DNA of 64,000 nt from Botrimarina mediterranea (GTDB taxonomy: Bacteria; Planctomycetota; Planctomycetia; Pirellulales; Lacipirellulaceae), in NCBI RefSeq assembly GCF_007753265.1, contig NZ_CP036349.1:1087363-1151362 (forward strand), written 5' to 3'. The notes under the pieces were generated by a model. That model had not been told where the DNA came from and searched no databases. It was given only the letters and a program-made list of their open reading frames with translations. Below are positions 20,119 through 61,290 of this stretch, in pieces (the first letter of the stretch is position 1; the number at the start of each line of letters is the position of its first letter). Both the position numbers and the translations under genes were made by a program.

Positions 20119-20186
20119 CGTCGTTTGCTGATCCCTGACGCCTGACTCCTGACCCCTGACCCCTGTCGAGTCCGTCAGGCCCGGTC

Positions 20187-26811: not shown

Positions 26812-26813
26812 TT

Positions 26814-26899
26814 AACCACAAAGGAACAAAGGAACGACGGAAGCAGAGCGCACGATTGCCTTCAGCAAAATCTCTTTGTTCCTTCGTTCCTTTGTGGTG
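26814..26899. repeat. Palindromic repeat, ACCACAAAGGAACGAAG family, copy 2
   Basis: AACCACAAAGGAACAAAGGAACGA is matched by TCTTTGTTCCTTCGTTCCTTTGTGGT at the other end. It starts 3 bp after the stop of the upstream gene. Confidence 0.88.
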
Positions 26900-27042
26900 A
26901 ATCCTCTTGGAACCACCATCGCCGTGCTAGCAGCGGTTCCTTTTGCCTAACCGGCAGATTCTCTCAGGCGCCGCGGGCGTTTTAGTCGATCAATCTCGAC
27001 GAAGCGCCGGAGTTTTCGCCGCGACTTGTCGAGGTCTGCCAA

Positions 27043-28047: not shown

Positions 28048-28153
28048 CGGGAGGGACGAGGGGTTAGGGGCGGGGGACGAGGGCTTCTTGGGGAGTCCTC
28101 AGCGCCAGCGCCGCGAGTGCAGCGAGGCCTGCTCGCTGCGCGAGTAGGCTTGA

Positions 28154-28207
28154 GACTTGAGGGCTGGTGCGCCAAGCTTTTCGCTTCACCAGCCGAGTCC
28201 TCAAGTC
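28154..28207. repeat. Palindrome immediately upstream of mutS
   Basis: GACTTGAGG (28154-28162) and CTGGTG pair with CACCAG and CCTCAAGTC (28199-28207). A half-copy of the GGGACGAGGG repeat lies just before it (28052-28080). The mutS ATG is 11 bp downstream. Confidence 0.7.
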
Positions 28208-28217
28208 GCACACCTCA

Positions 28218-30902
28218 ATGTCGCAACTCTCCCCCATGATGCAGCAGTACCACGAGGCCAAGGCGGTCTCGGGGGACGCGTTGCTCTTGTTCCGCATGGG
28301 GGACTTTTACGAGCTGTTCTACGAGGACGCGAAGGAAGCGGCGCGGCTGCTGGGCATCACCGTCACGACGCGCGACAAAGACAAGGGCGCGAAGGCCGTG
28401 CCGATGGCGGGGTTCCCGCACCACCAGCTCGACGCCTATCTGGCGAAGATTCTGCGTTGCGGCCGGCGGGCGGCGGTGTGCGATCAGATGGAGAGCCCTG
28501 CCGAGGCAAAAGGGATCGTCCGTCGTGAAGTGACGCGGATCGTCTCCGCCGGCACCGTCATTGATGACCAGCTCCTCGATCCGCAGGCGAGCAATTACCT
28601 CGCCGCCGTCGCGTTCGACGGCCAAGCGCCGAAGGGCAATCACCGGCCGCTTGTCGGCTTGGCGTGGATCGAAGTCTCGACGGGCGAGTTCACCGCCACT
28701 GCGATCGACGAACGCCGCCTCGCCGACGAACTGTCGCGCCTCGAACCGGCCGAGTGTCTCGTCGCCGAGGGTAGCGACGCCCTGTTGCCGCCCGAGGCGT
28801 CCGACCGCGCCGCCATCACGCGCCGGCCGACGTGGTCCTTCGGCGTGCAGATGGCGATGGAGTCGCTCCGCAAACACTTTGGGACCCAGTCACTCGAAGG
28901 CTTTGGATTCGATTCGTCGTCGCACGCCGACGCGTTGGCGCTGTCGGCAGCGGGGGCGATCCTTGGGTACCTGTACGAGACGCAAAAGGCGTCGCTCGCC
29001 CACGTCGATCGCTTGAAGCCGTTCCAAGCCGACTCGTCGCTGCAGATCGACGCCGCCACATGGCGCAGCCTCGAGGTGACGCACACGCTGCGCGACGGCC
29101 GGCGCGACGGCGCGCTCCTCGGCGTGATCGACCGCACCGTGACCGGCGCCGGCGCGCGGTTGTTGGCCGACTGGCTACGGCGACCGTTGACGAGCGTTGA
29201 TGCGATCACGCACCGACAGAGCGCCGTCGCCGAACTGGTGGAGAACGCATCGCTCACGTCAACGCTCCGCGAAGAGCTACGCGGCGTGTACGACTTGCAC
29301 CGTCTCGTCGCCCGCGCAACGACTGGCAGAGCGAGTCCGCGCGACTTGGCGAGCGTCGGCCGCACGCTCGGCGCGTTGCCACGCCTCAAAGCAAAGCTCG
29401 CCGGTCGCAAGAGCGAGCGATTGCAACGGCTCGAAGAACGCATCGACCTCTGCGGCGATCTGCGTGAGCAACTGACGGCGGCGCTGGTGGACGACTGCCC
29501 GCTCTCGCCGCGCGAGGGGGGCTTCATCCGCGAAGGCTACTCGGCCGACCTCGACGAGTGCCGCGAGCTGATGGCGGGCGGCAAGCAATGGATGGCGGCT
29601 TATCAGGCGAAGATCGCCGCCGAGTCCGACATCCCGTCGATCAAGGTCGGCTTCAACAAGGTCTTCGGCTACTACCTCGAAGTCACGCACGCCCACCAAG
29701 GCAAGGTCCCCGCGGAGTTCATCCGCAAACAGACGCTCAAGAACGCCGAGCGCTACATCACGTCCGAGCTGAAGGAGTACGAAGAAAAGGTCCTCACCGC
29801 CGAGGACCGCGCGTTCACGCTCGAGTACGACCTCTTCTCACAACTGCGCGAAGCGACCGCCGACGCGGGCAAGCGCCTGCTCGCCACCGCCGAGGCGCTC
29901 GCCGAGATCGACGCGTTAGCGAGCCTCGCCGAGCTCGCCCGTTCGCGCGGTTACTGCCGCCCCGAAGTCGTCGATAGGCCGGTGCTCGAGATCGTAGCCG
30001 GCCGCCACCCGGTGCTGGACCTGACCGAGCCGGAGGGAACATTCGTGCCGAACGGGGTGCGCTGCGCGGGGACGAGGGACGAGGGACGAGGGACGGGGGA
30101 AGAACGGCAGCCCTCGTCCCCCGTCCCTAGCCCCTCGTCCCTCTTGCTCCTTACCGGCCCCAACATGGCCGGCAAGAGCACCTACATCCGGCAGACGGCG
30201 TTGATCACGCTGCTTGCGCAGATCGGTAGCTTTGTGCCGGCGACGAAGGCGACCATCGGTGTGGCGGATCGGTTGTTTGCGCGCGTTGGCGCCAGCGACG
30301 ATGTGTCGCGCGGGCAGAGTACCTTCATGGTCGAGATGACCGAGACCGCGCGCATCCTCAACACAGCGACGCCGCGGTCGCTGGTGATCCTCGACGAGAT
30401 CGGTCGCGGCACGAGCACTTACGATGGCCTGTCGATCGCTTGGGCGATCGTCGAGCACCTGCACGACGTGGTCGGTTGCCGGACGCTGTTCGCCACGCAC
30501 TACCACGAGCTGACGCAGCTCGCCGGCCGCCTGCCGGGCGTGGGGAACCTCAGCGTCGCGGTCCGCGAGCACGACGGCCGCGTGGTCTTCCTGCACCAGA
30601 TCGTCGAAGGCCCGGCGGACAAGAGCTACGGCATCCACGTCGCCCAACTCGCCGGCGTCCCACGCAGCGTCAACGAACGCGCTGCCGCCATCCTAGAAGA
30701 GCTCGAAGCTCAAAAAGCCGACAGCCGACAGCCGATAGCCGACAGTTCGCGCAGCGCCGTTGGCATCCAGATGACGCTGTTCGAAACCGCGGATCATCCG
30801 CTACTCGATGAGATCCGCGCGCTCGATATCGATCGGTTGGCGCCGATGGACGCTTTCGAGCGCCTTCGCACGTGGCGGCAACGTCTGCTCGCTGAGCGCT
30901 AA
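28218..30902 (+). CDS. mutS: DNA mismatch repair protein MutS
   Basis: The 894-residue protein begins MSQLSPMMQQYHEAKAVSGD; GDFYELFYED carries the Phe-x-Glu mismatch-reading motif. Domains follow the normal order: mismatch-binding, connector, lever (FNKVFGYYLEVTHAH), clamp and the ATPase with Walker A GPNMAGKST (647-655), SQSTFMVEM-like signature, Walker B LVILDEIGRGTST and the TLFATHYHEL loop. Just before Walker A about 25 extra residues (618-642) are encoded by a GC-rich palindrome; a second short repeat-derived stretch lies near 833-843. The frame is open upstream to 28167, but the ATG at 28218 matches family starts. Confidence 0.95.
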   Translation: MSQLSPMMQQYHEAKAVSGDALLLFRMGDFYELFYEDAKEAARLLGITVTTRDKDKGAKAVPMAGFPHHQLDAYLAKILRCGRRAAVCDQMESPAEAKGIVRREVTRIVSAGTVIDDQLLDPQASNYLAAVAFDGQAPKGNHRPLVGLAWIEVSTGEFTATAIDERRLADELSRLEPAECLVAEGSDALLPPEASDRAAITRRPTWSFGVQMAMESLRKHFGTQSLEGFGFDSSSHADALALSAAGAILGYLYETQKASLAHVDRLKPFQADSSLQIDAATWRSLEVTHTLRDGRRDGALLGVIDRTVTGAGARLLADWLRRPLTSVDAITHRQSAVAELVENASLTSTLREELRGVYDLHRLVARATTGRASPRDLASVGRTLGALPRLKAKLAGRKSERLQRLEERIDLCGDLREQLTAALVDDCPLSPREGGFIREGYSADLDECRELMAGGKQWMAAYQAKIAAESDIPSIKVGFNKVFGYYLEVTHAHQGKVPAEFIRKQTLKNAERYITSELKEYEEKVLTAEDRAFTLEYDLFSQLREATADAGKRLLATAEALAEIDALASLAELARSRGYCRPEVVDRPVLEIVAGRHPVLDLTEPEGTFVPNGVRCAGTRDEGRGTGEERQPSSPVPSPSSLLLLTGPNMAGKSTYIRQTALITLLAQIGSFVPATKATIGVADRLFARVGASDDVSRGQSTFMVEMTETARILNTATPRSLVILDEIGRGTSTYDGLSIAWAIVEHLHDVVGCRTLFATHYHELTQLAGRLPGVGNLSVAVREHDGRVVFLHQIVEGPADKSYGIHVAQLAGVPRSVNERAAAILEELEAQKADSRQPIADSSRSAVGIQMTLFETADHPLLDEIRALDIDRLAPMDAFERLRTWRQRLLAER
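30068..30146. repeat. In-frame palindromic element inside mutS
   Basis: GGGACGAGGG units on the left and CCCTCGTCCC-type units on the right form an imperfect palindrome within the coding frame. The same units occur outside coding sequence at 28052-28080. Confidence 0.85.
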
Positions 30903-61130: not shown

Positions 61131-61290
61131 CCAGTAGCCAGGGGTCAGTCGTCAGTTAATTCGGAGGGCAGGCGAGCCGGGAGCGTCAGCGACCTGTGGT
61201 TGGAACCCGCAGCACTCCGGTCGCTGACGCTCCCGGCTCGCCGCCAATCCTCCTGGCGACGGATCCCTGACCCCTGACCCCTGACACCTA
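61131..61290. repeat. GACCCCTGACCCCTGA-type palindrome enclosing another palindromic repeat
   Basis: The left part has AGGGGTCAGTCGTCAG; the right part has CCCTGACCCCTGACCCCTGA in the opposite sense. Between them sits copy 2 of the GGCGAGCCGGGAGCG family (61171-61242). The rest of the gap 61076-61481 shows no gene. Confidence 0.75.
61171..61242. repeat. Palindromic repeat, GGCGAGCCGGGAGCGTCAGC family, copy 2
   Basis: GGCGAGCCGGGAGCGTCAGC pairs with GCTGACGCTCCCGGCTCGCC at the ends; the loop differs from copies 1 and 3. Confidence 0.9.

Follow-up and report, generated by a model that had tools for sequence, protein, structure and literature searches.

The mutS gene of Botrimarina mediterranea encodes a long segment directly before its ATP-binding motif, and the DNA of this segment is a palindrome. 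This raises the question of how a repeat of this kind came to be translated within a housekeeping enzyme and to what class of element it belongs. The window, i.e. the whole stretch of 64,000 nucleotides analyzed here, is part of a 5.87-Mb genome (G000). The mutS coding sequence occupies positions 28218–30902 on the forward strand and encodes 894 amino acids from the ATG at 28218 (the listed open reading frame begins at a GTG at 28167). Pfam domains MutS_I to MutS_V are all found, and domain V begins at residue 644, just past the insert.

The insert lies at positions 30068–30146 on the forward strand (residues about 617–643), and translation shows that the frame is open throughout. Its 5′ arm at 30069–30099 consists of tandem GGGACGA units on the forward strand, with four mismatches to the 31-mer arm consensus. 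The 3′ arm at 30111–30141 is in the opposite orientation, and between the two paired arms is an 11-nt loop at 30100–30110 that has no gene inside. The arms are 87% complementary. When 30060–30152 is folded as single-stranded DNA, the energy is −33.7 kcal/mol (z −4.56) and none of 200 shuffles is as good. The lag-7 score of the 5′ arm is 22, a value reached by none of 74 control windows of the same gene. An earlier note on this DNA had described an in-frame palindrome before the Walker A motif, and this description holds; the 10-base repeat unit that it proposed does not, as the tandem unit is 7 bases long, GGGACGA with the variants GGGACGG and GGGGYTA. Directly 3′ of the insert are the codons for GPNMAGKST (30156–30182, forward strand, located from sequence and residue numbering), which presumably represent the Walker A motif.

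An AlphaFold2 model of the protein has a mean pLDDT of 85.3, and among PDB entries it best matches structures of E. coli MutS. Residues 620–637 fall below a pLDDT of 50, and the strands at 612–617 and 642–646 on either side of them are retained. A second heptamer array, of four AGCCGAC-type units in frame on the forward strand, is found at 30716–30742 in the C-terminal part of the gene, where residues 836–857 are disordered in the model. The insert is likeliest a tolerated flexible loop, and would be expected to have little effect on ATPase activity or mutation rate.

The same repeat is dispersed in the genome. The pattern GGGACGAGGG has 106 matches in G000 (54 and 52 by strand) versus 7 (2 and 5) for the reversed pattern. 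Sixty of these places were sampled, 58 elsewhere in the genome and two in the window; 38 have arrays of three or more units and the other 22 have none, the latter being mostly single chance matches. The unit variants of the arm follow a fixed order, GGGACGAGGGGYTAGGGACGGGGGACGAGGG. This 31-mer has 50 matches in the sampled stretches when up to 6 mismatches are allowed, 7 of them exact, and none in the reversed sequence. A longer 15-mer of the family is rare even in G000 (7 matches), because unit order varies. Upstream of mutS, a single arm with one mismatch to the 31-mer is found at 28053–28083 on the forward strand, 5 nt past the stop codon of the preceding gene, and thus the repeat does occur outside of coding sequence before mutS, as the earlier note had it.

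Of the 38 array places, 28 are called intergenic, and 23 of these, as a raw count, are between genes of the same direction. The intergenic arrays are often nearly flush with the neighboring genes, e.g. with gaps of 8/9 at L153, 8/7 at L166 and 3/14 at L004. Automatic calling places the other ten arrays within genes. Two of these (L148 and L185) have the array before the Pfam domain, at residues about 15–21 and 33–42, and are not counted here because they probably abut the true start codon. The remaining eight are in open frame in the genes for MutS, LipA, KdtA, a MoxR-type ATPase, RsmD, RlmKL, IleRS and an AMP-binding enzyme; the names LipA, KdtA, MoxR, RsmD and IleRS are our assignments from motifs and are consistent with the Pfam matches. 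Arrays of this family are thus present inside other genes of the genome, and the GGGACGA array is translated in different frames in different genes. Loops of this kind in other genes leave a special role of mutS as a target unsupported.

Other repeats are present in the window and elsewhere in the genome. A palindrome of another heptamer family (GAGACTTGAGGGCTGG ... CCAGCCGAGTCCTCAAGTC) at 28143–28216 occupies the rest of the gap before mutS, and a long hairpin with 24-nt arms that are 92% complementary and have AAAGGAAC units is located between two genes at 26812–26901. Additional heptamer arrays of the CCCTGAC and AGAGGCT types are at 20134–20165, 61265–61285 and 2593–2616 of the window. A palindrome with GGCGAGCCGGGAGCGTCAGCGACC arms, at about 61170–61263, adjoins a CCCTGAC array, and GGCGAGCCGGGAGCGTCAGCGACC is also found beside or inside GGGACGA elements at L149, L165 and L195. 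The isoleucyl-tRNA synthetase of G000 (L160) displays three separate repeat-derived inserts.

MutS proteins of related genomes were compared by the spacing from FVPN to TGPNM, a measurement which required both motifs in one frame. Matches were found in 55 of 59 genomes; two genomes with no match, G037 and G046, are given as 99% complete. Within family f1, 33 of 36 genomes were measured (G011 and G026 have no match, and the motifs of G010, L017, are not in one frame). Outside of f1, 16 of the 21 genomes with a match were measured, G038, G041, G043, G054 and G058 being left out. The spacing is 33 aa in the window and 20–63 aa across the 33 f1 proteins, versus 14 aa in 14 of the 16 proteins outside of f1, where the other two have 43 and 100. 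The longest of these (L057, G042) has a 100-residue loop at the same place that is made of a 15-base tandem repeat. The loop is therefore longer than usual, as had been noticed from the window alone, but the expectation that relatives simply lack the insert is not borne out, as the measured f1 proteins have 20–63 residues there, many of them derived from other heptamers.

In 19 of the 33 f1 mutS genes, no control window from the same gene has a heptamer score as high as that of the loop; in the remaining 14 this is not so. The heptamers themselves differ, i.e. GGAAGTS in the nearest relative (G001), GGAGTCA in G028, GTCGCGA in G017, GGCGGAA in G034, and others. Sisters at supported nodes have different heptamers in the cases of G000/G001, G028 versus G017 and G024, G034/G025 and G014/G022; the pair G018/G005 likewise differs, but the arrays are weak. 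Pattern counts over 40 f1 genomes, with reversed controls, fit genome-specific heptamer families. GGAAGTSGGAAGT has 52 matches in G001, 30 in G000 and at most 2 elsewhere (its reversed control reaches 8 in one genome), GGAGTCAGGAGTCAG has 21 in G028 and at most 2 in other f1 genomes, and GTYGCGAGTYGCGAG has 84 in G059, 43 in G017, 27 in G022 and few in many others. GGCGGAA was dropped as an informative pattern, its reversed control being that very heptamer in a shifted phase. In these counts the exact pattern of the G034 mutS array had no match outside of that gene, thus membership of the mutS array in an abundant repeat family is not true of every genome.

Six further genes were aligned with their orthologues in G001, G003, G002, G007 and G020. 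In the loop of the MoxR-type ATPase, G000 has GGGACGA, G001 has an array of the ATTCCGC type and G007 has one of the GAGGTCGG type. In IleRS, the arrays of one loop differ among G000, G001 and G007, and this loop is short in G003 (14 residues) and G020 (10 residues). Since the same loops carry other heptamers in related genomes, they appear to be re-occupied or overwritten quickly. Nested palindromes seen by eye at L193 and L149 suggest that some insertions occurred into older loops. A single-insertion model for mutS is rejected because sister genomes have different heptamers at the same codons. The earlier proposal that a palindromic element entered mutS at a tolerated loop thus stands as to a dispersed element, in frame, in a loop of pLDDT below 50 between retained strands; it does not stand as to one entry event. 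The contrary case that the earlier note had set out, in which all relatives share one insert at the protein level with no similarity to intergenic repeats, is not what is found: the DNA differs between relatives, and the arrays of G000, G001 and G028, though not that of G034, are abundant repeat families in their own genomes.

A clue to the origin of the palindromes comes from one larger copy. The GGGACGA palindrome at G000:C1:2997003-2997472 (L170, L238) encloses a minus-strand gene with a match to PF05635 (1.4e-38), i.e. S23p/IVP, the 23S rRNA-intervening sequence protein, a four-helix bundle. Its arm is identical to the reverse complement of the mutS 3′ arm at all 31 positions. Only one of the 38 GGGACGA-family array places has such a gene. 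Since a larger form of the hairpin family carries a PF05635 gene, the encoded protein is a candidate for the mover of the hairpins.

Every PF05635 match in four f1 genomes (G000, G001, G028 and G017) was inspected, 17 genes in all when the broken gene that gave two matches (L244, L248) is counted once. Inverted arms scoring at least 15 within about 260 nt of the gene flank 14 of the 17. Arms of this score are absent at L244 (the broken gene, whose flanks are badly set), L237 and L235. Among the best matches in other planctomycetes, arms were found at 10 of 23 testable loci and not at 13, the weakest family matches failing; in a mixed set of 20 genomes (Bacteroidota, Verrucomicrobia, Acidobacteria-like, other records and some planctomycetes), the best matches have arms at 17 of 28 testable loci and lack them at 11. 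Five cut loci in the former set and two in the latter were excluded as untestable. Arms of score 15 were found at none of 250 and none of 180 random placements, none of 56 and none of 88 shifted placements in the same loci, and none of 62 small genes. The best period is 7 in 34 of the 41 arms that pass. A PF05635 match is present in 14 of the 20 mixed-set genomes and in 25 of the 59 sampled planctomycetes.

Similarity of the IVP proteins is correlated with similarity of their arms (Mantel r 0.356, 0/5000), also between genomes only (r 0.254, 0/5000). The correlation leans on a trio with CGAATGA arms, and without this trio r is 0.115 (16/5000). Heptamers common to similar proteins are seen at separate places and across genera, e.g. 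L246 in G000 and L249 and L251 in G017. Among the four f1 genomes searched, a link between the mutS heptamer and an IVP arm inside one genome is seen only in G000 and G017; none of the IVP arms seen in G001 and G028 matches the heptamer family of its own mutS.

These data point to the mutS insert being a gene-less copy of an IVP-linked mobile palindrome with arms of 7-base repeats, a reading to which a probability of roughly 0.7 is assigned. The heptamer palindromes would be either the ends of an IVP element or its non-autonomous forms, and solo palindromes, including the mutS copy, would be its non-autonomous products. Their movement would be in trans, perhaps by way of a hairpin in single-stranded DNA or RNA, and would depend on IVP-type proteins, which would recognize the heptamer hairpin and assist in its copying, or on some other factor that copies the IVP element. 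Insertions may persist where they are nearly harmless, i.e. in short intergenic gaps, older palindrome loops and disordered in-frame loops. A broader proposal is more tentative and is given somewhat less than an even chance: PF05635 proteins may be mobility factors or sequence-specific partners of widespread 7-base-repeat palindromes, such that IVP binds its own heptamer hairpin and promotes the spread of copies to new sites, protein genes among them. If this is true, the rRNA intervening sequences and the mutS insert are two outcomes of one system, one analogous to RAYT/REP except that its protein family is not known to have a catalytic site; we know of no catalytic activity of IVP.

Local simple-sequence evolution is the strongest of the alternatives, possible although unlikely. 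Slippage would expand the heptamers and template switching would form the palindromes with no dedicated mobility factor, and the PF05635 elements would be passengers that entered existing hairpin loops. Slippage typically yields tandem arrays of 7, and the heptamers change from genome to genome. According to excerpts of PMC4679880, a survey cited there has heptanucleotide repeats as the most abundant class in most genomes, and a portion of PMC4990558 describes heptamer numbers that differ among Coxiella strains. However, the same order of unit variants in the 31-nt arm recurs at many unlinked places, with 7 exact copies, and this counts against slippage because slippage alone does not produce it. 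The heptamers common to similar IVP proteins across places and genera (L246; L249, L251) also do not favor it.

A mutator switch is very improbable. Gain or loss of one 7-base unit, which is not divisible by 3, would shift the mutS frame before the ATP-binding motif and make the array a contingency locus by which mutation rate is switched reversibly. By its lag-7 score of 22, the 5′ arm is fairly regular as a tandem run, the site has been occupied repeatedly in family f1, and a comparable 6-base case occurs in mutL; strain variation in heptamer number has also been described in another element of this type (PMC4990558, in part). However, all 33 measured f1 mutS genes, from one genome per species, are in frame through the loop, a result in which an off state would have been missed because the measurement required in-frame motifs. 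In addition, inserts of this kind are present in several other genes, and mutS is thus no special case.

Still more doubtful is movement of the palindromes by a RAYT (REP-associated tyrosine transposase, Y1_Tnp), as for REP sequences. G000 does have five Y1_Tnp matches, three of which (L140, L141 and L142) are flanked by inverted repeats with scores of 33, 22 and 25, but these are other sequences and are non-heptameric (lag-7 identity 0.16, 0.33 and 0.33), and none of the five loci has a GGGACGA array. RAYT movement is thus unsupported. The palindromes flanking the Y1 transposase genes at L140 and L142 resemble REP sequences. The least credible alternative, an ordinary lineage-specific MutS insertion kept for protein function with an accidental repeat appearance, can draw on the fact that all 33 measured f1 loops are at least 20 aa versus the usual 14 aa outside, so that a longer loop may be ancestral in f1, but runs against the DNA-level match to a dispersed repeat, the hairpin fold of the insert DNA, the different repeat in the nearest relative (G001) and the predicted disorder of the loop.

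With the gene-less IVP-linked palindrome as the preferred reading, the dispersed heptamer palindromes of these genomes gain a candidate partner in the PF05635 protein. That protein family is spread over many bacteria and is without known function (PMC4990558, in the portion available), and frequent heptameric inverted arms give it a testable role. The heptamer repeats also reshape loops of housekeeping enzymes (MutS, IleRS, LipA and the MoxR-type ATPase) and change identity between sister species. A literature search of titles and abstracts, with most subscription journals outside of its scope, yielded no report of a link between heptamer palindromes and PF05635 outside of rRNA and none of fast heptamer exchange at fixed protein loops. 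Heptameric simple repeats as such are known, e.g. the STRR of cyanobacteria. Heptamer repeats have been described from several bacteria (excerpts of PMC4679880 and PMC6749651).

Among the known systems, the TAACTGA repeats of Beggiatoaceae are likewise tandem heptamers at many intergenic places; these sets, however, are direct repeats before start codons in almost every case, with one inverted, as presented in excerpts of PMC4679880, whereas the inverted arms here enclose a loop or a PF05635 gene. Terminal inverted repeats, as in MITEs, are present in the mutS hairpin and in two-armed copies elsewhere, and the family has shown no link to a classical transposase. The family resembles REP/RAYT in having many solo palindromes and few copies that flank a small gene. 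Unlike that system, the GGGACGA palindromes are not at Y1 genes, and the REPs of this genome (around L140 and L142) are non-heptameric and belong to the Y1 genes.

The earlier note had likened the insert to Rickettsia palindromic elements. In-frame palindromes are already known from Rickettsia, where such elements occur in many copies and within unrelated housekeeping genes (PMC10969869, in part, citing Ogata et al. 2000 and 2002), and palindromes in frame in protein genes are found here also. The Rickettsia elements are about 150 bp and have a conserved peptide; by contrast, and by description only, the heptamer arrays are read in several frames, are replaced between sister species and are linked with PF05635. 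Thus the resemblance in form stands, but the class is linked with PF05635 and not with anything shown to be related to the Rickettsia elements.

The closest comparison is the 23S rRNA intervening sequence of Coxiella burnetii, a hairpin-type insert described in the accessible part of PMC4990558. Its complete form has the S23p gene in the loop, and this gene follows tandem heptameric repeats that differ in number from strain to strain. The same source describes it as a selfish element and gives an old proposal that its open reading frame serves mobility. An S23p/IVP gene within an inverted-repeat stem loop is found here at L170/L238 and at 14 of the 17 f1 PF05635 genes, and the stem repeats are heptameric as in the Coxiella example (period 7 in 34 of 41 arms). 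The copies here differ in that they are many, mostly gene-less, and located within protein genes or in the gaps between them. In mutS, the copy is read through in frame as part of the protein, whereas the intervening sequence is cut from the rRNA by RNase III. By location and translation the mutS insert is therefore not an rRNA intervening sequence in the strict sense; since the Coxiella intervening sequence has the same parts, the two probably represent a single kind of element at different locations.
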